From a virus: a DNA stretch of 64,000 nt. Below are positions 4,196 to 46,632 of this stretch, piece by piece. The first letter of the stretch is position 1. Every line of letters starts with the position of its first letter. The notes beneath the pieces were generated by a model. The model was not told the origin of the DNA, made no database searches, and saw nothing but the letters and a program-made list of their open reading frames with translations. The stretch is taken from positions 117,161-181,160 of IMG/VR virus record IMGVR_UViG_3300050821_003907; one strand, 5' to 3'. The translations under genes were made by a program, and so were the position numbers.

Positions 4196-4632
4196 TACTG
4201 CACATCCCAGGGTAGCTCTTCCTGGTTCTCCAGGAGCCGCTTGATGGCAGGTTCTGCGGGCATGTAATTCGGGCCCTTGAGAATCTTGCCGTCATCGCGC
4301 AGGAGAGGCTGGCAGTCTGGCCCAATCTTAGACATGTTCGACAGGTGGACTAGCCGCAGGACTTCATCCAGGTTAATGCCGTAAGTAATCGCAGTCCCGT
4401 AGGCTACGTACACGACGTCAGCTAGTTCCTTGGCAATAGCCACGAGTTCATCTGACTCAAGAGCCTCAACAAGCTCACGCGTTTCCTCCCACTGAAGAGA
4501 TGAACGCAGGCTTATCTCCTGGTTGTCAATGTTTGCGGGCTGCGCGGGCGTGTTGCGCATGGGCAGGTCGAACATCGCGTGGAAGTTAGCGACTTCCCAG
4601 GCCACATCGGACACACCATCTGGTGTAGGCAT
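4195..4632 (-). CDS. MazG-like nucleotide pyrophosphohydrolase (145 aa)
   Basis: The all-alpha NTP pyrophosphohydrolase (MazG/phosphoribosyl-ATP pyrophosphatase-like) pattern is visible: WEETRELVEALE at 48-59, then KELADVVYVAYGTA at 68-81. These supply the EExxE and ExxD acidic residues that bind magnesium. A C-terminal RDDGKILKGPNY motif is typical of phage versions. The family hydrolyses nucleoside triphosphates to monophosphates plus pyrophosphate. In phages this may sanitise the pool or lower ppGpp-type signals. Start overlaps the methyltransferase stop, so the two are probably co-translated. Confidence 0.85.
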   Translation of the reverse strand: MPTPDGVSDVAWEVANFHAMFDLPMRNTPAQPANIDNQEISLRSSLQWEETRELVEALESDELVAIAKELADVVYVAYGTAITYGINLDEVLRLVHLSNMSKIGPDCQPLLRDDGKILKGPNYMPAEPAIKRLLENQEELPWDVQ

Positions 4633-5702
4633 TAGTATCCTCCTTCTATGTCAAGGGCGTGCTTAAGTGCTTTTGCAACACATGTAGCGAGCGTCGGCGG
4701 CACGGCATTACCGATTAGCCGGTAGGCTGAGCTGGCAGGGACCGCGTTCCACGGCAGGTCCACCGGAAAGGTCTGCAACGCAGCAGCTTCCTGCGCGGTA
4801 ATCCTGCGGTGAACATAACCACTGTCTCCGCGATAAGGACGGGCACCATCTACGAGAAAGGGGTGGTACCACTCTACCCACGGAGATACACTACCACCCG
4901 AGTTCAAGCTGAGAGAATCAATGAACGGAGTCTTGTTACCTCCCATTATTGCTGGAAGGGTATAAGCAGGTGCGTCTAGGTTCAGCGGTCGTGCTCCGTT
5001 GAATAGCATTCCACTGTACGGACTACTGCGAAGCACAGGATTGCGGGCGAATGTAATCTTTGCGTTCGACTTAATGTCGTTGCCCAGCGCTCCGTAAACA
5101 GGCATTTCCGATAGGACACTGCGAACTGTGCCGCCCCGCATGCGCTGGTCAAACATAGCACACGTAAACGGTATGGAAATGCTGGAATTCTTGGGGAATC
5201 CTGCCAGGAACAAGCGCTCGCGGTGCTGGGGCACGCCGTATTCTGCGGCATCAACCACTAGCGCGCACAAGTCGTAAGACTCCCGGAGGAAACTTTTCAG
5301 GCGCTGAAAAGCTGAAGCATGCCGGGAACTTGTAAGGTCCTTTACGTTCTCCATGAGGAATGCACGAGGCTTCTTTGCATACACCACTGCTGAAAATGCG
5401 AATATCATCTGGCTTCGAGGGTCGTCAGGGTCTTGATTGCCTGCCCTGCTGAATCCCTGGCACGGCGGCCCACCGATGATTACGTCGGAGTCAGGGATTT
5501 CCTCTTCCCAGTTAGCGTGCATGATGTTGCCGGTAGAAAAATGAGAATCACGCTGGGACATGTAGTTACGTTGCATGGCAGCATCGTGAATCACCTTGGC
5601 GTGAGGGTCGGTATCGTTAGCCCACTGCACATCGAACCCGGCATTCGTAAAGCCAATGTCAAGTCCGCCTGCTCCAGAGAACAAGCTTGTAACGGTAGTC
5701 AT
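4632..5702 (-). CDS. DNA (cytosine-5) methyltransferase (356 aa)
   Basis: All key C5-methyltransferase motifs are present. They are motif I SLFSGAGGLDIGF (6-18) for AdoMet, motif IV GGPPCQGFS (77-85) with the catalytic Cys81, motif VI ENV (119-121), motif VIII QHRERLFLAGF (159-169) and the closing motif RLIGNAVPP near the C-terminus. Length is normal and the frame intact, so it should be active. No restriction endonuclease partner is visible beside it, so an orphan, self-protective or regulatory methyltransferase is likely. The recognition site cannot be read from the sequence. Confidence 0.95.
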   Translation of the reverse strand: MTTVTSLFSGAGGLDIGFTNAGFDVQWANDTDPHAKVIHDAAMQRNYMSQRDSHFSTGNIMHANWEEEIPDSDVIIGGPPCQGFSRAGNQDPDDPRSQMIFAFSAVVYAKKPRAFLMENVKDLTSSRHASAFQRLKSFLRESYDLCALVVDAAEYGVPQHRERLFLAGFPKNSSISIPFTCAMFDQRMRGGTVRSVLSEMPVYGALGNDIKSNAKITFARNPVLRSSPYSGMLFNGARPLNLDAPAYTLPAIMGGNKTPFIDSLSLNSGGSVSPWVEWYHPFLVDGARPYRGDSGYVHRRITAQEAAALQTFPVDLPWNAVPASSAYRLIGNAVPPTLATCVAKALKHALDIEGGY

Positions 5703-6508: not shown

Positions 6509-7441
6509 CTACTTACTGGGAATTACGATTCCGCTGCTGCTACCTGGCCAGCAAGAGAACCCGGCAGGCGGGTTAAGCTGACCATCAGAGATGGCGTTCA
6601 TGCACTGCTGCACTAGCACCAGCGGGTTATTGGCGACAGACTGCTCGATGATGTTGTTCGCCTTGGCTTGCGCCTGGGCAGTCTTCTCTGACTGCTGTGC
6701 GACATCAGTCTTAGCCGTCTGGGCCAGCACTGTGTTGATGCGATTCCGGACGGTCTGGTCGTACGTCAGCGGCTCAACGATGAGCGTGTCAATATGCACA
6801 TCATTGCCGATGCGGGCAGTCAGCGCGCTGGCAACCTCAGCCGATAGCTGAGCCGTGCTCGGGTTGCCGGGCGTTCCCGGTGCCGCATTGGTGGCGAGCA
6901 GCTTAATGGGGTCGTACCCATCATAGACGCTGTTCATCGCGACGTTCAGTTCCGGCTGAACCAAAGCCGTAGCCACGTTAGCGGTGTTGCCCTTGTACGC
7001 ACGGAACAGGGTGTCCGTCGCGCTCGGGACTAGCTGCCAGCGGAGCTTGACGTCTGCCTGAGCAGTCTGCTGCCCGGCAACGCGGACAGTAAGCGTGTAG
7101 TTCATGTTCTGGACGCTCTCGTCCATTAGTGACATGTTCTCCCACGGGGCAATCCAGTGAGGACCAGGGCCGTCGTAGCTAAGTACCTTCCCGAAGGAAG
7201 TTGTCACGCCGATATCGTAGGTTCCCACTGCATTGAACGAGCTGACAGCCAGCATGATGGCCGCCATGACACCAGCGAACGCGCCGATGCCTGTAGCCCA
7301 GTAGCCGATGAAGCGCATGTCTTGCGCATCAGTCGGATGCGTGTTGGGAGAAGCTGCGCCCTTCCGCAAGAGGACGGTTGTGATTACCATCGCAACCAGG
7401 AGTGCTGCGAAGAGAATCGCAAGGATGAAAGTGACAGGCAC
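6509..7441 (-). CDS. SPFH/prohibitin-like membrane protein (310 aa)
   Basis: Two N-terminal hydrophobic segments (about 4-25 and 45-70) are followed by a prohibitin/SPFH-type domain (VGTYDIGVTTSFGKV, TLTVRVAGQQTAQADVKLRW) and a helical Ala/Gln-rich segment (QTAKTDVAQQSEKTAQAQAK). Band-7/SPFH proteins form rings on membranes and control proteases or lipid domains. In phages they resemble host-membrane scaffolds or lysogeny modulators, but no such role is shown here. The C-terminal tail carries two cysteines. Confidence 0.8.
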   Translation of the reverse strand: MPVTFILAILFAALLVAMVITTVLLRKGAASPNTHPTDAQDMRFIGYWATGIGAFAGVMAAIMLAVSSFNAVGTYDIGVTTSFGKVLSYDGPGPHWIAPWENMSLMDESVQNMNYTLTVRVAGQQTAQADVKLRWQLVPSATDTLFRAYKGNTANVATALVQPELNVAMNSVYDGYDPIKLLATNAAPGTPGNPSTAQLSAEVASALTARIGNDVHIDTLIVEPLTYDQTVRNRINTVLAQTAKTDVAQQSEKTAQAQAKANNIIEQSVANNPLVLVQQCMNAISDGQLNPPAGFSCWPGSSSGIVIPSK

Positions 7442-12754: not shown

Positions 12755-15115
12755 TTAAGGCTTCATTCCACGGTGTCGTCGCAGGATTCGCTTGACCATC
12801 ATCAGGCACTGCAATGCGGTCAGCACAGCCAGGATTCGCCATCCTGTGAGGAGGGTGTAGTCCTGCCACGCACCGGGAAGGTGTTGCCATGCAGTGACGA
12901 TTCCGTAGATGAACCCAATGATGAGCAGCGAGAATCCGAAAATCTTAGGACCGAAGCCCATTGACTTACCGGATTCTGCCTTCTTCTGCGCAGCCCAGCC
13001 ATCACTGCCCGTGCCTGTAAGGACCTTGAACGTCGCAACGGTCATGGACGTTGCCCGGAAGATAAGGTAAAGCTCTACCGGAACCAGCGTTGCTGCTGAT
13101 ACGACATCCAGCGGAGTCCTGTTAGGCATGCGCATTGTCTGCCGTATGTTAAGCAAGATTGCCAACGCTGGCGGAATCAGCCAGTACCAGGACCAGTCGA
13201 ACTTGTGCACGGACAACGACGCGGTTAGCATGACGGCGAACATCAGGCGCATGAACCCGTTGAATAGCAGTCCCGCTACCTGAGTAGCCAGGGTTGCCGT
13301 CCACTTGTTCAGCCCCGATGTCATGATGAGACGCGCGATGCCCTGGTCCCACTTCTGGCGCTGTGCCCAGAGGGACTTGAGGTTGTGCATGGCACCGGGG
13401 TACGCACGCGCCTCAGGGTTAACCGTGGTCTTGTAGCCAAGCCCTCGCAGGTCACCGGTGAGCTGCATGTCCTCGACCTGGCTGGAGGTGTCCCACGGGA
13501 CGCCCATGCGCTTCTCTGCCACCTTCAGCAGCGCGCTGGCACGGAACAGGCTGAGCTGACCGCCAAGGACGTAGGTGTTGCGCTTGTTGTGCAATAGCGA
13601 GTCAGTCCAGTCACTGAACTCCACCCGCTGCATGCGGACAAGCATTCCCCCCTCTTGGTGGAACGTGTAGCGTGCCATGACGCCCCCGACGTTCCGGTCC
13701 TCGCGCAGTTCCGTCTCCAGGTGCTGCAACGCATCTGGCTCAAGAACGGTGTCAGCATCGACACCCGCAATGTACTCGAAGCCTTTGTGGTGGTGTTCCC
13801 ATCCCTGGTTAAGAGCGCCGGTCTTCTTGTCGCGGTTGCCGACAGTCTCCATCACAGTCGCGCCATACTGGCGTGCGATGCCAGCGGTGTTGTCCCCGCA
13901 GTTTCCTGTGAGGATTCCCCCGGAAAGTGTGAATTCGTGTTGTTCGGGAACAACGGCACAGCCTACGGTGAGGTAGGCTTCCGTGTCTCTAACATCAGTG
14001 ACCATCCATTTGATATTCTCTGCCTTCTTCAGAGAAGCGCGGTAGGCTGTAGTTTCTTTTCCGTCACTGTAGTTTCGCACGTAAGTTTCCTCCCATCGTC
14101 CTATCACCATTAGCCCACCGAAGGGAGCGTAATCTTCTAGCCAGTCAATGATGTCTGACCTCATCGACGCAGGGTGATTAGACCCGGTGCGCTTGTTCAC
14201 GTAACCATCGGCCGCTAGATACCCGTGAGTAAATCCTGCTGCGTAGTTAGCCGTAGGGCTGATTGGTAGGTCCTTAAGATTAGCGGTGTCCTTTACGTAT
14301 AGAGTTCCTCGGTACTGCGGCGTAGCTTCAGCTTGCGACTTCACTTGACGAACTTCTTCTTCAAAGAAATCCGCCATGCGAATCTTGTCTGCGTAAAAAG
14401 AGACTCGATAAGTACGGACATTGTCTAGGTTGTGGTAAGTCTGAGTACCGTCTCCAAAAATAAACCCATGTCGAACGCCTGCACGATAATCCTCACTAGC
14501 AGTGTCGGCTGACACATCGGTAGACGTGGGAATTACATCGCCCTTCGTGATGTCAGTAACAACACCTCTTTCGGTAATCCAGCGGTGGTCGGGCGTAACT
14601 CGCACTGTCCTACGATAAGTCGTACGAGAAGGTACTCGCCATCCTTGCTTTCCGTTACGATAAGTGACGGATTGCGCGGGACCTAGTTCGACTTCTTGAA
14701 TCCTCTGAACGCCGAACTTTTTAATTTCCGCCTTTTGCCACCCACTGCTTGTTAGGATTTCTTGAACCGTACCTGCGGTTTCCCGGAAAGACTTGATGCC
14801 TTCACGAGTAAGGTACCTTTCGTCCAGAGCGAAACAGTTGTCAGCAATGACTACGATGCGGTCTGGCGTTCGCGTCTGCCGCTTAAGTGCGGTGATGGTG
14901 ATGCCGATGGAATCCTGCTCGTCGTGAGCGGGAATCATCACCAGCACGCGGCCGGTCTTGACAGCCTTAACCGGGTCACGATAGCGAATCTTGTCTACCG
15001 CACGGGAGACTTCGCCTACTAGAATGCGGGCAGACTGCTTTAGCTTCTCAGCCGGGCGAAGCCGTGGCGCTCTGGCTGCCGGGGGCTGCCACAACATTAC
15101 ATCTGTCCCTGGCAT
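12755..15115 (-). CDS. GT2 membrane polysaccharide synthase-like protein with intein (786 aa; 474 after splicing)
   Basis: The exteins form a processive family-2 glycosyltransferase of the cellulose/hyaluronan synthase type. They contain VLVMIPAHDEQDS (57-69), DAD (453-455), QVEDMQL (546-552, catalytic Asp) and QRQKW (585-589, variant of QxxRW). Five or so hydrophobic helices follow (about 605-635, 640-660, 670-690, 722-745, 755-775). Such enzymes polymerise sugar nucleotides at the membrane and export the chain. The intein lies after Asn93, inside the nucleotide-binding region, so splicing should be required for activity. The GH5 gene directly upstream suggests a polymer synthesis-and-trimming pair. 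The polymer is unknown. Confidence 0.85.
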   Translation of the reverse strand: MPGTDVMLWQPPAARAPRLRPAEKLKQSARILVGEVSRAVDKIRYRDPVKAVKTGRVLVMIPAHDEQDSIGITITALKRQTRTPDRIVVIADNCFALDERYLTREGIKSFRETAGTVQEILTSSGWQKAEIKKFGVQRIQEVELGPAQSVTYRNGKQGWRVPSRTTYRRTVRVTPDHRWITERGVVTDITKGDVIPTSTDVSADTASEDYRAGVRHGFIFGDGTQTYHNLDNVRTYRVSFYADKIRMADFFEEEVRQVKSQAEATPQYRGTLYVKDTANLKDLPISPTANYAAGFTHGYLAADGYVNKRTGSNHPASMRSDIIDWLEDYAPFGGLMVIGRWEETYVRNYSDGKETTAYRASLKKAENIKWMVTDVRDTEAYLTVGCAVVPEQHEFTLSGGILTGNCGDNTAGIARQYGATVMETVGNRDKKTGALNQGWEHHHKGFEYIAGVDADTVLEPDALQHLETELREDRNVGGVMARYTFHQEGGMLVRMQRVEFSDWTDSLLHNKRNTYVLGGQLSLFRASALLKVAEKRMGVPWDTSSQVEDMQLTGDLRGLGYKTTVNPEARAYPGAMHNLKSLWAQRQKWDQGIARLIMTSGLNKWTATLATQVAGLLFNGFMRLMFAVMLTASLSVHKFDWSWYWLIPPALAILLNIRQTMRMPNRTPLDVVSAATLVPVELYLIFRATSMTVATFKVLTGTGSDGWAAQKKAESGKSMGFGPKIFGFSLLIIGFIYGIVTAWQHLPGAWQDYTLLTGWRILAVLTALQCLMMVKRILRRHRGMKP
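13901..14836 (-). mobile_element. Intein with LAGLIDADG-type homing endonuclease (312 aa)
   Basis: The intein runs from Cys94 (CFALDERYLT) to Asn405 (GGILTGN) and is followed by Cys406. Block B appears as TPDHRW and blocks F/G as EFTLSGGILTGN. Two DOD endonuclease motifs are recognisable, GFIFGDGT and GYLAADGY, each ending in the expected acidic residue and glycine. The penultimate residue is Gly rather than the usual His. This is tolerated in some inteins but may slow splicing. Removing it restores a continuous VVIADN-CGDNTAG glycosyltransferase motif. Confidence 0.9.
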
Positions 15116-15138
15116 CTTATTTACCTTTCGCCTTATTG

Positions 15139-16752
15139 TTACGGGTTGAGGGTACCGAACCAGGACTGAAGGTCCTGGCCCGCACCTTGAGTGGGACCAT
15201 CTGGGAGAACGCAGGAGTATGTTCCCGCATCATAACTGTTAGCCGTGGCAGGACCGCTATTGTCCTGGTTCAGGATTCCAGCGCCGTTAACGTCACCCGT
15301 GCCAAGCGTCCAGGCAAGCAAACCTATTCCCTCATCTTGCAAGTAGCGCAAGTACGCGGGCACTGAAGCAGGGGCATCACCCCAGCACTCACCCACATCA
15401 CCGAGAGAACCAGGGTTGCCGCTGGTAACTGTCCTGTTAGTCCACTCTCCGTCAACTACAGGTGCTTGCAGGTGCTTGACGAGCTGCCCGAATTCAGCAT
15501 CCCAGTTAGCAGTAGTGCGAGCCACACCATCTACAGTTGGGTGATGGAACTCATACACTGTAAGCTTGTCCGGGTCCGTAACGTGCCACGAGCTAAAGTT
15601 AGACGCAACACGGCCAAGCCCCAGCTCACCCATGACTCCGGGGAATTGCGGTGTCTCGTCCCACAGCATGTTCGTGTAACCGTTAGCGCGAAGCGTTACC
15701 GTTAGCTGGTTCATGCCGATGTAGGTGGTGTCGCCTGAGTATCCGCCGTTAAGCCACAAGCTCCACATGGAGTTATCAGTCATGGAATCATCCGAACGCG
15801 GCTCGTTAAACGGGTCAATGATTACAGACTTGTCACCTGCTATAGTAGGGGCTAGTGCTTTCCACACGTTGACTGTAGTTTGCGTGGGCAGCGGCTGATT
15901 GTCGTGAGCAATAGGGTCGGGTTCTGTTTGGTCAACAATGACCACCATAAGCCCGTCAGACTGAGCATGGCTGATAACTTGCTGTAGACCGGAAAGGTAA
16001 GCGGAGTCCACATCTCCGGTAGCAGGGTCAACAAGCGTATCCTGGCTGATGAAGATGCGAACGGTGTTGGCGTGCCACGAACTAGCGCTAACATCTTCCT
16101 GGTCTTCTGCCTGGCTAATCCATGAGTCATACTGCGGCTGCCCAGAACCATCCAGGTACCACTTGTTGTCAGGCTCGCCGGGGTCAGTGCCGTACGGGTA
16201 CTGCGTGCCGTTGAGGTTCATTCCCAGCGGCAGGTACAGCTTGCCGCCCACGACCATGTTCACGCCGCTTAGAGAAACGTCACCGCGTGCATTGCTGAAG
16301 CCGGGGAACGCCACGCCGTTCATTACCCAGTGCCCGTGAAAGCCCGCACCTGCGGTCTTAGCCGTGATGATGCCGGGAAGCGCATAGCTCCAGTGCTGTG
16401 CGTTATCCTCGTTACACTGCCACATCTGGCCTTTAATGGGGTTACGGTTTCCTGCGTTGTCCAGGCAGTAAGCACCACCGCTAGCCCGCATGGTGAGAGT
16501 CCCGTCCAGGGACATGTTCCACTGCTGCTCGTTAGTGCCGTTACAGGTTTTGCCTGCCACTGCAACGCCGTCCTTTGGCGTCCCTGTAAGGCACTTCCCA
16601 CCGCTGGTGATGGTACCCCAAGGCATGGAGTTGACAGGCTTGTAGTGCAGCGGGGGACGGTGCTTAGACGGGGAACTGTACGCTGGCGTGGCAGCGCATG
16701 CTGACAGCAATATGCTAGGCAGCAAAGCCGCTGCTAGCCAGCGCATCTTCAT
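15139..16752 (-). CDS. Secreted GH5-type glycosidase with ricin B-like lectin domain (537 aa)
   Basis: A lipoprotein-type signal (LLSAC, Cys19) is followed by a ricin B/CBM13-like module (about 50-125) with QQW and QHW repeats. The catalytic domain follows: DPFNEPRS with Glu317 as acid/base, YEFHHP, and VVDGEWTNR with Glu436 as nucleophile. These fit glycoside hydrolase family 5 (endo-beta-glucanase/mannanase type). Attachment to the host membrane is expected. Its stop is 23 bases from the start of the GT2 synthase, paralleling bacterial cellulose operons in which a glucanase accompanies the synthase. The substrate is not deducible. Confidence 0.85.
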   Translation of the reverse strand: MKMRWLAAALLPSILLSACAATPAYSSPSKHRPPLHYKPVNSMPWGTITSGGKCLTGTPKDGVAVAGKTCNGTNEQQWNMSLDGTLTMRASGGAYCLDNAGNRNPIKGQMWQCNEDNAQHWSYALPGIITAKTAGAGFHGHWVMNGVAFPGFSNARGDVSLSGVNMVVGGKLYLPLGMNLNGTQYPYGTDPGEPDNKWYLDGSGQPQYDSWISQAEDQEDVSASSWHANTVRIFISQDTLVDPATGDVDSAYLSGLQQVISHAQSDGLMVVIVDQTEPDPIAHDNQPLPTQTTVNVWKALAPTIAGDKSVIIDPFNEPRSDDSMTDNSMWSLWLNGGYSGDTTYIGMNQLTVTLRANGYTNMLWDETPQFPGVMGELGLGRVASNFSSWHVTDPDKLTVYEFHHPTVDGVARTTANWDAEFGQLVKHLQAPVVDGEWTNRTVTSGNPGSLGDVGECWGDAPASVPAYLRYLQDEGIGLLAWTLGTGDVNGAGILNQDNSGPATANSYDAGTYSCVLPDGPTQGAGQDLQSWFGTLNP

Positions 16753-23536: not shown

Positions 23537-24367
23537 TTAGGCGACACTCTTCCGGCGAGACTTAGGCTTGCTCTCGTTCTTGGCATCGATGGTCTGCTGG
23601 ATTGCAGTCATCATGTCGGTGAACGCAGCAACGCCCTGGTCCGGAACCGCCGCATCAGCAGTAACATGCGTGGGACCGTCCTGAATCTTGGCCATGACCA
23701 GCTTCTCAAGGCGCTCAGCACTTTCGTCCTTGTGCTGCGAGAAATCAAACTCGTCATCAGACAGAGTCTCGATAAGCTGGTCAGCCAGCGAGTTTTCCTT
23801 GTCCGAGAACGTAGCGCTGGGGGCCTCAAAATCTGGCCGCGTCACGTCATTGCCCCAATGGAGCTGGGACAGAACCAGGTAGCCCTCCGCGTCCGGCGAC
23901 AGGATGGCCAGGTGAACGCTGTCGCGCATCGCGAAGCGAAGCACCCCGACCTTTCCAGCGCGCTTCAGCGCGGCGTGCAGCAGGGCGTAGCCCTTGTCAC
24001 CGCCATCACCGGGCTTGACGTGATAGGACTTGTCGATAGCCTGAGCGGGAATGTCAGACGCCTTGGCGAACGTTACTATTTCCCCGCAGTGCCGCTCATC
24101 CCCCTTGATTTCCTCTAGTTCCGAGTCCGTGAGCAGGACGTTGCCACCGGGAATCTCGAAGCCACGCCCGATGTCCTCCCAGCGAACCTCGTTAAGGTCG
24201 CCCTTCTCCCGGTCAGCCTTGGCAACACGCACGTACTCGATACGAGAGCCGTCAGACTTCCGCAGCATGTGCAGGCCGCCGTTCTTGTTGCTCGGGACTA
24301 CAGAGCCAAGCCGGACGGGCAGGGAGAAGGGACCGAAGGAAAAAACACCCTTGAATGCGGTATGCAT
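23537..24367 (-). CDS. ku: Ku DNA end-binding protein (276 aa)
   Basis: The order of segments matches bacterial Ku. It begins AFKGVFSFGPFSLPVRL and continues with RIEYVRVAK, IGRGFEIPGGNVLLTDSELE, a YALLHAALKRAGKVGVLRFA core and HLAILSPDAEGYLVLSQLHW. The basic tail (KPKSRRK) also fits. Length is typical. Ku rings thread onto DNA ends and recruit ligase D for non-homologous end joining. In mycobacteriophages Omega and Corndog, Ku with host LigD circularises phage genomes. No ligase D gene is seen here, so a host ligase would be needed. The RNA ligase at 33226-33921 is a different family. Confidence 0.9.
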   Translation of the reverse strand: MHTAFKGVFSFGPFSLPVRLGSVVPSNKNGGLHMLRKSDGSRIEYVRVAKADREKGDLNEVRWEDIGRGFEIPGGNVLLTDSELEEIKGDERHCGEIVTFAKASDIPAQAIDKSYHVKPGDGGDKGYALLHAALKRAGKVGVLRFAMRDSVHLAILSPDAEGYLVLSQLHWGNDVTRPDFEAPSATFSDKENSLADQLIETLSDDEFDFSQHKDESAERLEKLVMAKIQDGPTHVTADAAVPDQGVAAFTDMMTAIQQTIDAKNESKPKSRRKSVA

Positions 24368-32951: not shown

Positions 32952-33233
32952 TTACAGCACGCGCCGGTAGGCGGCAAGATTCGAAAGGGCTTTATCTAGG
33001 CGTGGGACAGCCGTGTGTATTTCCCGCATTGCCTCGTTCAGGATGTTTTCCATTCGCTGAATGTCGTCAGCAGTAGTGTTGCGGATGCCGAAAGCAATCT
33101 CTTCTAGCGCTTCGCAGGCTTGCGCGATAACGAAATTAGCTTTGCTAGTGTGCTCACTAGCCTCATCGAGAGGGTTATAAGCTTCCATTCCCAGCCGGAT
33201 TTGCTCTTTCCAGTTATCATTCATTTCAGTCAT
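32952..33233 (-). CDS. Helical hypothetical protein (93 aa)
   Basis: All-helical acidic protein (FVIAQACEALEEIAFGI, MREIHTAVPRLDKALSNL). It overlaps the RNA ligase stop by 8 bases. Not recognised. Confidence 0.65.
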   Translation of the reverse strand: MTEMNDNWKEQIRLGMEAYNPLDEASEHTSKANFVIAQACEALEEIAFGIRNTTADDIQRMENILNEAMREIHTAVPRLDKALSNLAAYRRVL

Positions 33234-33921
33234 TTCGTTGCGCCTTTACAGGTACGTCGCGAGTCTTCAGCTTCATCACAAGGCGCTCACCGCCGCGCGT
33301 GAAGAGCGGAACAGCAGGCGTGCCCACTACTCCCTCAATCACAACGCCGCGCTTGTGCCAGTACGACAGGAACGTGCCGCTCTTGATGGCTTCCCACGCT
33401 TCTACCGGAGAATATATCCAGTAAATTTCGGGAACCAGGCCGATTTCGAAGTAACGCGCTACGTCCTTAACGTCTTCAGGGGTGAGCCACCACTTACCGA
33501 CGCGCACGTCGAACAGGATGAAGCTAACGTTATCCCGGTACAAGCCACCGCCCTTCTGAATTCGTGGCCCGTAGCCCTCACCGTAAAGCGTGACAGACGG
33601 CTTCTCGCCGTCAGTGAACAGGAATTTCTTCTCCCACTTACTGGCGTCAAGCAGGCCCAGGTTGCGGATTGCTTCTGTCAGGTGCGCGGGCATCTGCGCG
33701 TTGTCGGTTCGTCCACCGAGAACTACGCTCTCGCCGTTCCAGTAAAGACGGGTGTTCGTGCCGTCAATTTTCTCTGTCCAGCGCCAGGGGCGGTCCTTCA
33801 GGTACGCGAATTCCGGCAGGGACCAGTCCCATTCAATGATGGGGTTGTTCTTGGCGTCGGTGTCCCGCTTGAACGCTGTGTGGATTTTGTGGTATGGAGG
33901 ACCAAAGGGCGAATCCGTCAT
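33226..33921 (-). CDS. RNA ligase (Rnl2-like nucleotidyltransferase, 231 aa)
   Basis: Motif I TEKIDGTNTR places the adenylated Lys at 51. Later FILFDVRVG (IIIa-like), GVVIEGVV (motif IV) and LVMKLKTRD (motif V) complete the covalent nucleotidyltransferase core. Phage RNA ligases of this type seal tRNA or other RNA breaks made by host defence nucleases. No polynucleotide kinase partner was recognised nearby. Full-length frame; ATG at 33921 is preceded by AGGAGATTGCC. Confidence 0.85.
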   Translation of the reverse strand: MTDSPFGPPYHKIHTAFKRDTDAKNNPIIEWDWSLPEFAYLKDRPWRWTEKIDGTNTRLYWNGESVVLGGRTDNAQMPAHLTEAIRNLGLLDASKWEKKFLFTDGEKPSVTLYGEGYGPRIQKGGGLYRDNVSFILFDVRVGKWWLTPEDVKDVARYFEIGLVPEIYWIYSPVEAWEAIKSGTFLSYWHKRGVVIEGVVGTPAVPLFTRGGERLVMKLKTRDVPVKAQRND

Positions 33922-41464: not shown

Positions 41465-43159
41465 CTAGCCGCGCTTGCTGTAGTCGTTACCGTCAGCGCG
41501 AGCCAGGACTTCCGACGCGATGTCGTCGGCAATCTGCTCAAGCTCGTCTTGGGTCATCGGCTTGTCACTGCCACGACGGTTACCGGGGTAAGGCAGGTCA
41601 GGCATGGGCTTGGCAGGCCGCATCACGAGCTTGATACCGGCTCGCCGCCAGTTGGCTAGACTGTCACTGGTGATGCTTCCCTTACCTTCACTCTGAAGGG
41701 ACACGCGGTCACCCTCAACCACGATGACAGTGCTAACGCCCTTTGGCCACTCCCGGATGTCCAGCCTTACGCGGTCTCCCACCATAGGCTCATACACGTT
41801 CGGAAGTACCTCAACCGTAAACGTGATGTCGTCATCAGGCAGGCAACCAGACTCACCGCACCAGGACTGGCACGCGCAACCCCACGATTCCCCGCACGTA
41901 AGCTCAAGGAACTCGCCATACGACAATTCTCCTGCCTTGAATGCGGCGTGAGCAGCCTCCTTTTCATCCGGTGAGCAAATCGCGGGCGAGTACGCGGCGT
42001 TACTGTCGTCATCCTCAACGCGGTCCAGTAGCGCGCGGTCCTGCGCTAGCATGCGTCGCATCCATTCCGGCTGCCATCCGCCATCGTCATCATCGTAGTT
42101 ACGCGCGGGAACCTTGCTACCAGCAGGAGTGAAGCACGAGCATTCAGAAGCGGTCATGTAGCAGTCCTGGCAGGAGTCGCACGCGGCGCACAGCAGCGTA
42201 ACGATGTCTACCCTAGGCTGACCGCAAAGGCAGCAAATGACGTTCTCGCGCTCTGACGCGCCCTCTTCAGCATCACGGAACTGCGTGCCAAGGCCGCACG
42301 TGTCAGGCGCACCAGACGCCCAACTGCCCTCATTAGACGACCACGTGCCATCTTCCTTTCGCGTCCACTCACCACTCTGGTAATCCCACGTAGCGCCGGT
42401 GTAGGCACTACGACGGGGCACGATGTAGCCGGTGTTGCTGTGCCATGCCCCGTCACGGGTCCAGATACCCGCATCCTCGTTGTAAATCTTGTACTCCCAC
42501 GGCGCACCGGCAGCACGAGCAGCAGGCGACATCGCGTCAGGATTCACGGTGATGATGGCGACCTTGTTGCCACCGCCAAGGTAACTCTCGATTTTCCTGG
42601 TTCCGCGCTTGGACCACAAGCTAGCAGGCTGATGAAACTTCGCCTTGATAAGGTCACTCGGGTCAGTGACCTTCACGATTCCCTTGAGGATATCCGGCAT
42701 TAGCACTTCCGCGAAGATTCGCGTGTCACTACGCCAGTCACCCGCGTGCGGCGAGAAAAAGACACCGTTATGACCTAGAACAGTCTTGGGGTCAGCGCCC
42801 GCACCGCTCCAGTTCACGTCAAACGGGTGACACCCGCGCGTGTCCTCAACACCGCCAGTAGCGAAACGGCTGTGGAACATAGCCGGGCCAGTCGGGTTTT
42901 CCTTCCGCAAGGCGCAAAAGCGCAGCGCAAGGTCGTAACAGGCATCGACATTAATCACGGTCTGCATGTAATGCGTGCCGGGCGTTGCCTTAGACTCGCG
43001 CTTTTCCTGCTCCTTGACGCCAATGGCCTTTTCAACCACAAGCGTGCCATCATCAAGGACTAGCGCGAATCCGCAACCATCGGGGTTCGACTGAATTCCT
43101 TCCGAAAGCTCATCGTAATCAGGCTGGACATTCGGCGGGAAAAAACTCAAAAGGCACGT
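41465..43159 (-). CDS. Class II glutamine amidotransferase-like protein, candidate ACG start (564 aa)
   Basis: The reading frame gives (start)CLLSFFPPN, then NPDGCGFAL, MFHSRFATGG, GHNGVF and SDTRIF. This is the N-terminal-nucleophile glutamine amidotransferase fold (GATase II) that releases ammonia from glutamine. The active-site Cys must be residue 2. The codon before it is ACG, with AAGGAG 10 bases upstream; the first in-frame TTG (43150) would delete the nucleophile. A Cys-rich middle (CCLCG...CDSCQDC, about 309-333) and a C-terminal GD/WxxxGI repeat (about 456-513) follow. It lies just downstream of the amidoligase, a known pairing in which it would supply ammonia or hydrolyse a product. 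Confidence 0.8.
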   Translation of the reverse strand, partial: TCLLSFFPPNVQPDYDELSEGIQSNPDGCGFALVLDDGTLVVEKAIGVKEQEKRESKATPGTHYMQTVINVDACYDLALRFCALRKENPTGPAMFHSRFATGGVEDTRGCHPFDVNWSGAGADPKTVLGHNGVFFSPHAGDWRSDTRIFAEVLMPDILKGIVKVTDPSDLIKAKFHQPASLWSKRGTRKIESYLGGGNKVAIITVNPDAMSPAARAAGAPWEYKIYNEDAGIWTRDGAWHSNTGYIVPRRSAYTGATWDYQSGEWTRKEDGTWSSNEGSWASGAPDTCGLGTQFRDAEEGASERENVICCLCGQPRVDIVTLLCAACDSCQDCYMTASECSCFTPAGSKVPARNYDDDDGGWQPEWMRRMLAQDRALLDRVEDDDSNAAYSPAICSPDEKEAAHAAFKAGELSYGEFLELTCGESWGCACQSWCGESGCLPDDDITFTVEVLPNVYEPMVGDRVRLDIREWPKGVSTVIVVEGDRVSLQSEGKGSITSDSLANWRRAGIKLVMRPAKPMPDLPYPGNRRGSDKPMTQDELEQIADDIASEVLARADGNDYSKRG

Positions 43160-43173
43160 AGCTACTGCTCTCC

Positions 43174-43275
43174 TTAATCGGACAAGAGGTTTCCCTCAAT
43201 GTCGTAAACTTTAGCGTCAGGCCCGTACAACTTCAGACCTCTTAAGTAGGAATTGCGGCGCACAGTAGCGCTCAC
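43174..43275 (-). CDS. Possible small protein between amidoligase and amidotransferase (33 aa)
   Basis: A frame ending YDIEGNLLSD stops at 43174, and its end overlaps the AAGGAG of the amidotransferase. GTG at 43275 or 43296 may start it (SATVRRNSYLRGLKLYGPDA). No strong ribosome site, so the call is tentative. Confidence 0.35.
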   Translation of the reverse strand: MSATVRRNSYLRGLKLYGPDAKVYDIEGNLLSD

Positions 43276-43282
43276 GCGAACC

Positions 43283-43359
43283 GGCAGGACGCACACGGGG
43301 TCAGCAGCGGGGTCTAGGCTGCCGTGCGGGGGACGGTTGCGTCCCGTGTGCGTCCTGCC
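43283..43359. repeat. 17-bp perfect inverted repeat
   Basis: GGCAGGACGCACACGGG at 43283-43299 pairs with its exact complement at 43343-43359 around a 43-base GC-rich loop. It lies in the gap between amidoligase and amidotransferase genes. It may be a regulatory hairpin; no T-run follows on the minus strand. Confidence 0.55.
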
Positions 43360-43396
43360 AGGTACTCTGTAACGACCCCAACGGGCGGGTTATTCC

Positions 43397-45733
43397 CTAG
43401 AACAGCTCACCCTCAAAGACACCGCTGGCATCCTCAAAGTCCGACATCTCCTGAGAGCTATCGTGCCGTTCGATGAACTCTGCAAACGACATTAGCTCGT
43501 CACTGGTCAACCACTCACGGCGTAGCCGACGACGTTCCTCGCCCTGAACCTCCCGCTTGGTCTCTACCTTCTCTTCCTCCAGTACGACCTTCTCCAGTTC
43601 TGCCAGGTCCGGGTAGGTCTCCCGGTTCTCCAGCAGCCACGCGCGGAACGCCGACCAGTCCCAGCCACCAGCGGCAACGGCCTTAGCCGTGAGCTGACGA
43701 GTGTACTCGACGCTAGCCGCGACGAACCCAACGCGCGCCTTGAACAGGCTAGCCGAGGTAGTAGACGCGAAGATTCGCACCTCCAGGGTACGGCGGTTGC
43801 ACGTGTTGATGGCTGAGTAACGACTGGCTGTCGTGTCGTCAGACTCAAGGTCCGCACGACTACGGTAGCGCTCACCACGCGACTCACGCTCAGCACGAAC
43901 ACGCTGTTTCATCTGGTTAAGCGCGTGCGCCTTTTGCGTCTCACGGTGCCCCTCACGGAATCCCGCCCACTGGTCAGAACTACGACCGGCGATTCGCTCG
44001 GCATGCGCCTGGTTACGGTAGACGAACTTCATCCACCTGAACAGGTGAGCCTCACTGGAGAAACCGTCACGGCTGACGTGAACGTGAATGCCGTTCTCAC
44101 GCTCGCTAACCGACGCGCCCTCTTCCGTAAGCTTCTCGACAATATCGAACGGGAATTCCGCCATTGCCCACGCCCATGTCATGGGGTGAGTGTTCAGCTC
44201 GAATCCCGCGACACTGCCGTCGCTCTTGGGGTAGATAAGTTCCTCGTTCCTCCCAAGGTCCTTAATGACGTCCATCTCTTCAGGAGAGCAATCGGATGTC
44301 ATCTCGACTTCGATGCCGTAGAAGGTGCTCGGCTGAGGGTCATCACTCGCCTTGTAAAAGACGGGCGACGGCTTGTAGTCCCACGAGTGCAGCCCGGCAG
44401 AGTCGGAAGAGTCGTCGTAACGGCTATCGCCGTAACGGTCTGTCCCGTCCTCATCATAGCCATCTGAGTCGTAACCATCAACGTCGAAACCCTCGTCGTT
44501 GTAGCCGTCGCGGTTATAGCCCTCATCGTCGTAGCCAGAGGAGTTGTAGCCATCCTCATCGTAACCCTCGTAATTGAATCCGTACGGGTCGTAACCGTTG
44601 TCGTCGTAACCGATGCCCTCATCGAGGCTATTCCCGTCGTACACCCCTTGGGTGTCAACGAGAGTGAAGTCCCAGCGGTAACGACTGGCACGGCAGTTGA
44701 TGACCAGGACCAGGCCATCGCGCAAGTGCATCAGGGCGCGACCAGAACGCGCGTTCTGGCGCGCCTCTTCCTGCACGCGGGAAAGAATGGCGTAGCCATA
44801 CGTGCCCGCACCATAGAAAGCACGGTCGTACCAGTGACAGATTTGGTCCGCGCGCTCCCCGGTGATGATGTACTGACTGCCCTCCGGGATTACCACGTCA
44901 GGCGGGTCAGGCACAACCGGGCTTTCCTCGCTGGCGGATGACGCAAGCCGCAATCCGCGCTCTTGCCAGCGCGCAAGGTGGTGGTCATGCACAACGCCGT
45001 CACCGTTGCGGACGGTGACAACGGTGCGGTTCTCGTAATCATAGCTAGAAGGGCAACGGTTGCACGCCGTGATTGACTCGATGACCAGCGGCGGCGTGCC
45101 GTAGTAACGATTGTAGCGGTCGTTAACGGTAACGACATCACCAACAACGGGTTCGTAAGGCATTGGTGTCTCCTGTACCTGGTCCGATTCGAGAAAGTCG
45201 CCGAATGATACGCGCGTTCGCGGCTCATGGCCGCGCTCTGATTCTGGCTCAAATGCTATTCGCGTCACGGGCTCGTCAACCACTTGGTAACCGTAGTCAG
45301 TGAGCAGCGTTCGCCAGTACTCTTGGCTAACCTGGCGGTCCACCGGACTAGTCTCGTGCGATTCGAAATGCACCACACCGTGGGCTTCGTCACCAGCCGG
45401 GTAAAGAACGCTGCTACTGGTGCGCGTGACCGTGAACGGCCCGCGACCGTAAGCGGACATAGAGGCAAGCCGGAATTGCATGCCCGATAGCGGACGTTGC
45501 GGAACGTCCGCAGGGCGGAGACCGTAACAGCGCCAGTAATGGAGCTGGTCGCTGAATTCCTCAACCTCACCCGCAGAGTTTCGCCCGCGCAAGGTAACGC
45601 GGACCTGCTCAGGATTAGCAGGGCGCATGCCAACGCTCGTGACGGTGGCGACGCCATTAGGCACGAAACCGGGGCTAACCTCTACCAGGTCACCCACAAC
45701 AGGGGTGTAGGAATTATCACTAACGCGGGGCAT
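43397..45733 (-). CDS. Amidoligase with GYDxx pentapeptide repeats (778 aa)
   Basis: The catalytic domain begins around residue 470. FYGIEVEM (471-478), KSDGSVAGFELNTHPMT (503-519), GIHVHVSR (548-555) and RRTLEVRIFAST (647-658) match the glutamine synthetase-like amidoligase superfamily, which joins amino groups to carboxylates with ATP. N-terminal to it are three GD...GLRLA-type beta repeats (about 10-75, 82-150, 193-265). Eleven consecutive GYDxx units (375-430) follow. The C-terminus is a charged coil. Its neighbours (class II amidotransferase, GGCT-like) are known genomic partners of amidoligases. Amide-type tagging of a protein or cell-wall precursor is the likeliest role, inferred. Confidence 0.9.
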   Translation of the reverse strand: MPRVSDNSYTPVVGDLVEVSPGFVPNGVATVTSVGMRPANPEQVRVTLRGRNSAGEVEEFSDQLHYWRCYGLRPADVPQRPLSGMQFRLASMSAYGRGPFTVTRTSSSVLYPAGDEAHGVVHFESHETSPVDRQVSQEYWRTLLTDYGYQVVDEPVTRIAFEPESERGHEPRTRVSFGDFLESDQVQETPMPYEPVVGDVVTVNDRYNRYYGTPPLVIESITACNRCPSSYDYENRTVVTVRNGDGVVHDHHLARWQERGLRLASSASEESPVVPDPPDVVIPEGSQYIITGERADQICHWYDRAFYGAGTYGYAILSRVQEEARQNARSGRALMHLRDGLVLVINCRASRYRWDFTLVDTQGVYDGNSLDEGIGYDDNGYDPYGFNYEGYDEDGYNSSGYDDEGYNRDGYNDEGFDVDGYDSDGYDEDGTDRYGDSRYDDSSDSAGLHSWDYKPSPVFYKASDDPQPSTFYGIEVEMTSDCSPEEMDVIKDLGRNEELIYPKSDGSVAGFELNTHPMTWAWAMAEFPFDIVEKLTEEGASVSERENGIHVHVSRDGFSSEAHLFRWMKFVYRNQAHAERIAGRSSDQWAGFREGHRETQKAHALNQMKQRVRAERESRGERYRSRADLESDDTTASRYSAINTCNRRTLEVRIFASTTSASLFKARVGFVAASVEYTRQLTAKAVAAGGWDWSAFRAWLLENRETYPDLAELEKVVLEEEKVETKREVQGEERRRLRREWLTSDELMSFAEFIERHDSSQEMSDFEDASGVFEGELF
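44444..44611 (-). repeat. Eleven-unit GYDxx repeat inside the amidoligase
   Basis: The coding repeat has a 15-base unit and encodes GYDDN, GYDPY, GFNYE, GYDED, GYNSS, GYDDE, GYNRD, GYNDE, GFDVD, GYDSD and GYDED in series. Codons differ between units, so it is maintained at protein level. Acidic side chains may be ligand- or ion-binding, or substrates. Confidence 0.8.
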
Positions 45734-46183
45734 CTAGCTTTCCCTCCAGGGAGACGTGTACTTGACGTAATCGCCGTGGTCAATCTTGTTAAAGCCAAAG
45801 TCCTTGTATGGCCGAACGAGGTTTTCGTTGGAGACGTAGCACCATGCATCAACGATGTCCCCGTTACCGGCAGCCTGCACCTTAACCCCACGTCGCCAGT
45901 AAGCGCAACGTGATTCGAAATTGGGGTGGTAACCCTCGTACTGGTCAAGGTAGCGAAGCGCGATGCCGATGTCAGATTCGTGAAAGGAAACCAGGTCACC
46001 AGTAATGGTGCCCGCGTGCCCGTCCTGCACGGGCAGGACGTAGGGAATCCAGCCGCGCTCCCACATTTCGTATCCGTCTAGGTACGCAGTGCCCGTGAAC
46101 AGGCCACGCAAGCCCGTGATGGACCTGCCAGCGCCACCGTGCTGCCTGAGCGTACCGTAAACCCAAAGATGTGTAGTGCGCAT
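45734..46183 (-). CDS. Gamma-glutamylcyclotransferase-like (AIG2/GGCT) protein (149 aa)
   Basis: VYGTLRQ near residue 8, a Gly-rich turn (GGAGRSITG), a GDLVSFHE segment and YLDQYEGY near 78-85 with the expected Glu match the GGCT/AIG2 fold. These enzymes cleave gamma-glutamyl or similar amide bonds by cyclisation. Its stop/start junction with the amidoligase is one base, so they are translated together. It probably removes or matures the bond the amidoligase makes. Confidence 0.8.
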   Translation of the reverse strand: MRTTHLWVYGTLRQHGGAGRSITGLRGLFTGTAYLDGYEMWERGWIPYVLPVQDGHAGTITGDLVSFHESDIGIALRYLDQYEGYHPNFESRCAYWRRGVKVQAAGNGDIVDAWCYVSNENLVRPYKDFGFNKIDHGDYVKYTSPWRES

Positions 46184-46209
46184 GCTTGGATTCCCCCCCG
46201 TCCGTGATG

Positions 46210-46632
46210 TTACTTAGATGACCTTCGCGTCGTTGTTGCCGTTCGGGTACTGCCAGCCTTAGCAGGCTTGTCTTCCGCAGTAGGCTCTGTAACGCTCTCA
46301 GCGCCATCCTCAGCAGTGCTGTCCTCACCCGTAGGCTCGTCAGCAGCATCGCCGTCCGGCGACTCCACAGGCACCTGCTCAAGCGGCTTGACGATGGCCT
46401 TGGCACGGATGATTACATCACCCTCCGGGGACAGCCCGGTCTTGACCTTAACGCCGTAGCGCCGTCCGGCAGCCTGAATAGACACGCGCTTGGAGTTGGG
46501 GTCACCGGTGAAGTCCACGCCCCTTTCGAGGATGTGCGGCTCACCATTGAACAGCAGCTCGTAATCGTGCTTCTCGTTCTGGCCCTTGCGGGAAATCATG
46601 TCGCTGAATTCGGCGTCAGAAATGGTACGCAT
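46210..46632 (-). CDS. Small protein with acidic/Thr-rich tail (140 aa)
   Basis: A folded N-terminal half (DAEFSDMISRKGQNEKHDY, RYGVKVKTGLSPEGDVIIRA) is followed by a long acidic, Glu/Asp/Thr/Ala-rich tail (about 90-140) ending in TRRSSK. It sits directly upstream of the GGCT-like and amidoligase genes. The abundance of side-chain carboxylates makes it a candidate substrate. This is speculation. Confidence 0.65.
   Translation of the reverse strand: MRTISDAEFSDMISRKGQNEKHDYELLFNGEPHILERGVDFTGDPNSKRVSIQAAGRRYGVKVKTGLSPEGDVIIRAKAIVKPLEQVPVESPDGDAADEPTGEDSTAEDGAESVTEPTAEDKPAKAGSTRTATTTRRSSK

Follow-up and report, generated by a model that had tools for sequence, protein, structure and literature searches.

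What do three enzymes that act on amide bonds do side by side in a viral genome, and do they form a single unit? The question arises from a locus in a 64,000-nucleotide stretch of DNA (the window), which corresponds to positions 117161-181160 of a virus record 181,160 bases long (G000). In the initial annotation, an amidoligase, a glutamine amidotransferase (GATase) and a GGCT-like protein were recognized there and read as a probable three-gene system for peptide or amide modification. The three genes and the motifs quoted for them all lie on the minus strand, where the order of transcription is as follows:

46210..46632, minus strand: 140-aa ORF, conserved, just upstream of the GGCT gene and in the same place in a second viral contig (L003)
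45734..46183, minus strand: GGCT-like protein of the GGACT/AIG2 family, 149 aa (PF06094, E 5e-14)
43397..45733, minus strand: amidoligase, 778 aa (PF12224, E 5e-6; PHROG match, 1e-31; syntenic in L003)
41465..43159, minus strand: class II GATase, 564 aa counted from an ACG codon (GlmS/PurF profile and fold)

The GGCT gene abuts the amidoligase gene exactly (45734/45733), and a spacing of 237 nt with a strong hairpin inside separates the amidoligase from the GATase. Given the common strand, and with no terminator called in a search between the amidoligase and the GATase, it is plausible that all three genes are carried on one transcript. In L003, the gene order is kept, and the GGCT, amidoligase and GATase are 81%, 69% and 82% identical to those of G000, with dN/dS values of 0.23, 0.21 and 0.13, respectively; all three genes are under purifying selection. 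Because both order and sequence are preserved in L003, the cluster is not a product of chance. The 140-aa ORF, which found no match in Pfam and PHROG searches, is 73% identical to its L003 counterpart (dN/dS 0.34). A nucleotide search with the part of the window from 38 to 50 kb against known phages gave no near match.

The GGCT-like protein, as initially named, matches the GGACT profile with 53 bits (cut-off 22.8). Its YGTLR loop and catalytic Glu83 are kept (Y9, G10, L12, E83) in comparison with five other phage copies; a PDB sequence search with the protein found no match. The name given to the amidoligase also holds: the PF12224 (Amidoligase_2) match spans residues 506-672 (27 bits; curated cut-off 22), and 47 of 48 members of its family match the same profile. 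The protein is composed of the following parts:

44915..45712, minus strand: two VGD-type beta-rich domains, residues about 8-75 and 193-273
44414..44590, minus strand: GYDxxG-type repeat stretch, about residues 382-440, seen in the sequence (low model confidence)
43574..44401, minus strand: catalytic domain, about residues 445-720 (pLDDT mostly above 90)

The catalytic domain makes up only the C-terminal ~40% of the 778 residues. Among solved folds, the amidoligase model is closest to YbdK (E 6e-4), a Salmonella homologue and the Pup ligase PafA (E 6e-3), with glutamine synthetase as a weak match; TM-scores are low because much of the full-length model is of low confidence. Invariant in 48 amidoligases are G473-E475-E477, G510-E512, H550-H552, R584, N643 and E651-R653, that is, the motifs GxExE, GxE, HxH, R, N and ExR. 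A fold of the GCS/glutamine-synthetase type with acidic, His and Arg active-site residues is thus present, and the amidoligase is predicted to form amide bonds at the expense of ATP. In 129 of 160 amidoligase relatives, at least four CxxC motifs precede the catalytic domain; in the G000 and L003 proteins, VGD-type domains and the GYDxxG repeat, which L003 also has, replace this region.

The GATase was harder to place, as Pfam found no match for the single sequence. Nevertheless, its identification stands: 40 of 48 family members match GATase_4, a profile of the 48-member family finds the GlmS glutaminase domain (E 1.5e-7), and the AlphaFold model matches GlmS/PurF, i.e., the Ntn glutaminase fold (E 2e-5, probability 1.00). 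Three regions can be told apart in the protein:

42425..43159, minus strand: Ntn catalytic domain, about residues 1-245 (pLDDT mostly above 80)
42134..42235, minus strand: module with a fixed pattern of eight cysteines (8-Cys module; weak RING-domain similarity, E 0.02)
41570..41797, minus strand: C-terminal VGD-type domain, common to the amidoligase N-terminus

Cys2, R98, T101, H111, N131 and D145 are invariant in the 48 GATases, and G132 is nearly so; we take the six to be the equivalents of GlmS Cys1, Arg73, Thr76, His86, Asn98 and Asp123. Catalytic residues are therefore encoded intact in all three genes of the locus, with an ACG in front of the GATase Cys codon in G000. The 8-Cys pattern, which probably binds zinc, recurs in 74 of 76 viral and 22 of 24 bacterial GATases among the best-scoring relatives and is a feature of the whole GATase family. 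The VGD-type domain at the C-terminus resembles that at the amidoligase N-terminus (blastp E 1e-6 in a very small search), and its occurrence on both partners suggests a common assembly.

Whether the genes form a unit was judged from the best 80 of 274 viral amidoligase loci, the best 80 of 251 viral GATase loci and 25 bacterial loci, which, once duplicates had been removed, gave 76 viral and 24 bacterial distinct GATases. A same-strand amidoligase, nearly always directly upstream, accompanies 75 of the 76 viral GATases, and one accompanies each of the 24 distinct GATases of actinobacterial genomes; as these are the best-scoring relatives, the rate may be lower for distant ones. The single unpaired viral GATase (L118) has just 168 bases of upstream sequence. 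The median gap from amidoligase stop to GATase start is 9 nt in viruses and -13 nt in bacteria, and the 237-nt gap of G000 is longer. At many loci, both genes are present twice. The core unit in this lineage is a widespread and conserved amidoligase-GATase pair, and the pairing suggests that two genes are also the minimal unit of phage amidoligase cassettes.

In this lineage, a GGCT gene was found beside the pair in three contigs only (G000, L003 and L097). One of them, L097, is a 117-kb viral contig with two amidoligases, two GATases and one GGCT at L097:1222-9149. The PF06094 profile found no match in the genome of mycobacteriophage Marvin or in the records, some of them fragments, of four further relatives. 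GGCT is therefore optional in the lineage and dispensable in most relatives there. In another phage lineage, represented by C75C1, one protein (L206:3998-4894) has a GATase N-terminus, identified by a weak Pfam match and tblastn (E 4e-6), and a GGACT C-terminus, with an amidoligase upstream. The fusion occurs in 13 contigs, C75C1 and twelve further viral ones (L209-L220), and in 11 of them an amidoligase lies upstream within the available sequence. Moreover, Stenotrophomonas phage StenR_269 encodes a GGCT, an ATP-grasp, an amidoligase and amidotransferases within about 8 kb. Since a separate lineage fuses GGCT to GATase beside amidoligases, the three-way link is real, and the fusions tie the cyclotransferase to the amidoligase-GATase pathway. 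The trio occurs together in most contigs of the C75C1 type, in StenR_269 and in UFV-P2, as well as in L003 and L097. Of the two findings that would have told against the initial annotation, lost catalytic residues and a trio that never recurs in homologues, neither was observed. The three-gene system of the initial annotation stands insofar as these families are genuinely linked, by the near-invariant pair, the fusions and the UFV-P2 cassette (PMC3890496), but in its own lineage the unit is the pair.

Comparison of sequences and structures thus established the families, their intact catalytic residues, the conserved pairing and the purifying selection; from these we infer ammonia transfer, complex formation, a carboxylate substrate and a role for GGCT. 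On balance, we favour an amide ligase that has two components, depends on glutamine and is assisted by an accessory cyclotransferase. In it, the class II GATase would split glutamine at its N-terminal Cys and release ammonia; the amidoligase would use ATP to activate a substrate carboxylate and join it to this ammonia, yielding a carboxamide. The 8-Cys module of the GATase and the VGD domains of both proteins most likely would hold the enzymes, or the enzymes and their substrate, together, and GGCT would probably remove or recycle a gamma-glutamyl group in the same pathway. Peptide modification, as originally proposed, goes beyond the evidence, as the families predict that some carboxylate is amidated, at the expense of ATP, with ammonia from glutamine.

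The nearest solved folds of the amidoligase model, an amine ligase (YbdK) and a Pup ligase (PafA), argue against an ammonia ligase, in that the fold also serves ligases whose amine is not ammonia. The amidoligase might then attach an amino acid or amine, as in gamma-glutamyl or peptide tags on proteins, which GGCT would remove, with the GATase supplying glutamate or ammonia only. This is rather doubtful: GGCT does act on gamma-glutamyl bonds and GATase-GGCT fusions exist, but the nearly constant presence of a class II GATase beside the amidoligase suggests that the nitrogen comes from ammonia, and most relatives in the lineage lack GGCT.

For the favoured amide ligase, the enzymology is predictable and the target is not; it may be a protein, a peptide or a cell-wall peptide, with the cell wall as a tentative first guess. 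The pair could possibly amidate stem-peptide carboxylates (D-Glu or meso-DAP) of host peptidoglycan and so shield the infected cell from the hydrolases or adsorption of other phages. GGCT fits this target poorly, because the alpha-amino group of its gamma-glutamyl substrate has to be free, which is not the case in intact stem peptides. The phages and plasmids that carry the pair also come from widely differing hosts. However, a role in the cell wall has been proposed for RIO-1-like, phiEco32-like and related cassettes (PMC5498523; PMC10580990), and peptidoglycan amidation is a known host reaction, though carried out by other enzymes (MurT/GatD, PMC3267633).

Modification of DNA bases, by Gat-QueC-like 7-deazaguanine chemistry or through another amidated base, is very improbable, even with a DNA methyltransferase elsewhere in the window (4632-5702, minus strand). 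Phages are known to use class II GATases in 7-deazaguanine DNA chemistry; here, however, the GATase is partnered by an amidoligase and not by a nucleotide enzyme, and the QueC profile (PF06508), which matches in 12 control genomes, has no match in the G000 record, which may be incomplete.

The GATase of G000 has an unusual start, and the region between the two enzymes holds further features:

43233..43363, minus strand: conserved structured RNA, 131 nt, between the amidoligase and the GATase
43174..43230, minus strand: possible 18-codon TTG ORF, within a ~70-nt stretch absent from L003
43168..43175, minus strand: AAGGAGAG, Shine-Dalgarno-like, whose GGAG ends 10 nt before the ACG
43157..43159, minus strand: ACG before the catalytic Cys codon (43156-43154), the likely GATase start

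The start chosen by the ORF caller, a TTG at 43150, would lose the Cys nucleophile. At the position of the ACG, a script that classified 104 distinct relatives found ATG in 99 and GTG in 4, and the L003 GATase starts at ATG. The remaining relative (L137:5938-6915) seemingly has an Ile codon there, possibly another non-standard start. In comparison with L003, about 70 extra nt lie between an old Shine-Dalgarno-like AAGAGG and the ACG; no second copy of the stretch turned up in the genome or window, nor any match in phages. The ACG may be a genuine initiation codon, a point change or an assembly error, and it leaves doubt as to whether the G000 GATase is made in active form. It has to be considered that the gene is decaying, its start codon lost and the gene broken or mis-assembled in the record, as the replacement of ATG by ACG and the separation of the old site from the gene would suggest. 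This is unlikely, since the GATase gene is otherwise undamaged and evolves under constraint (dN/dS of 0.09 for the GATase domain; 97% identity to L003 over the first 30 residues), and an AAGGAG stands 10 nt before the ACG.

The leader RNA folds better than all shuffles (z -5.5 in G000 and -3.8 in L003), and its core is 86% identical between the two, with about 59% of synonymous sites in the flanking genes differing. Across the 45 consensus pairs, 3 changes are compensatory, 8 are one-sided and no pair is broken; covariation is thin because two sequences only are available. The core was found on the contig of L003 only, plus once in the window, and an Rfam search of the region gave just two sub-threshold matches of unrelated kinds. 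In both genomes, the AGG of the AAGAGG site lies in a small hairpin, paired with CCU, and a natural guess is that the leader controls GATase translation by masking this site. A more speculative extension, which we consider quite unlikely, is a protein-modification system in which an amidoligase of PafA-like fold, steered by the zinc-type or VGD modules, amidates proteins. If so, specific proteins would be amidated with glutamine nitrogen, GGCT would erase or trim the mark, and the leader RNA, by masking the GATase Shine-Dalgarno site, would tune the supply of ammonia.

The host is probably an actinobacterium, because, among isolated phages, those of Mycobacterium encode the nearest relatives of both enzymes and 25 genome-collection matches of the GATase family bear actinobacterial titles. 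At different bacterial loci, the neighbours include a prim-pol, an SSB and a phage-type integrase, which suggests mobile elements. Three mycobacterial plasmid records of 144-155 kb bear amidoligase and GATase, and in one the pair lies beside DnaB, a DNA methyltransferase and a phage Gp37/Gp68 family protein. The linear 155.6-kb M. abscessus plasmid pGD21-2 (L201), which has the pair near one end and phage-like genes as well, is perhaps a phage-plasmid. In the G000 record, the PF03354 terminase profile had no match. Elsewhere in the window, all on the minus strand, lie a family-2 glycosyltransferase (786 aa) adjoining a GH5 cellulase-like protein with a ricin-type lectin domain (12755-16752), perhaps a phage polysaccharide system, a Ku-like DNA end-binding protein (23537-24367), an RNA ligase (33226-33921) and a Band_7/SPFH protein (6509-7441).

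Among well-characterized enzymes, the GATase shares its fold with the GlmS glutaminase domain and the amidoligase with YbdK and PafA, though partners and substrates differ. MurT/GatD differs further in that its partner is Mur-ligase-like; here, the partner is an Amidoligase_2 protein and the GATase is of class II. GatD belongs to another amidotransferase class. In phages, the trio is not new, as the same enzyme kinds occur in published cassettes (UFV-P2/LUZ24-like, RIO-1-like and phiEco32), whose role has been put forward as a hypothesis (PMC3890496, PMC5498523, PMC10580990). The UFV-P2/LUZ24-like cassette likewise has an amidoligase, a class II GATase and a GGCT within about 5 kb, but adds a COOH-NH2 ligase and an ATP-grasp, and its genes are not adjacent (PMC3890496). 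Sequence similarity between the two loci is remote: in a search of five proteins, the GATase matched at E 3e-7 and the amidoligase at E 0.01. The 'peptidoglycan modification cassette' of RIO-1, PSA-HP1 and phiEco32, likened by gene content, has the same enzyme kinds but comprises seven genes, with two amidoligases and an ATP-grasp (PMC5498523). In G000, the COOH-NH2 ligase profile (PF14395) found no match, as in the controls, nor did R2K_3, the one ATP-grasp family searched. C75C1-type phages combine the three activities and place GATase and GGCT on a single chain, but their short GATase runs straight into GGACT and the sequences are distant.

The closest isolated relatives by sequence are gp105 and gp106 of Marvin-type (cluster S) mycobacteriophages (about 33% and 28%), in which an amidoligase is likewise followed directly by a GATase with the 8-Cys module. 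Unlike G000, Marvin has no GGCT match, its amidoligase N-terminus is CxxC-rich in place of the VGD domains and GYD repeats, and its GATase starts at an ordinary ATG. As the pair without GGCT thus exists in phages of the tractable Mycobacterium smegmatis, its target is directly testable. Particular to the G000 variant are the beta-rich domain common to both enzymes and the conserved structured RNA between their genes; this leader RNA, like the ACG that precedes the codon of the Cys nucleophile, gives the variant a concrete, checkable feature.
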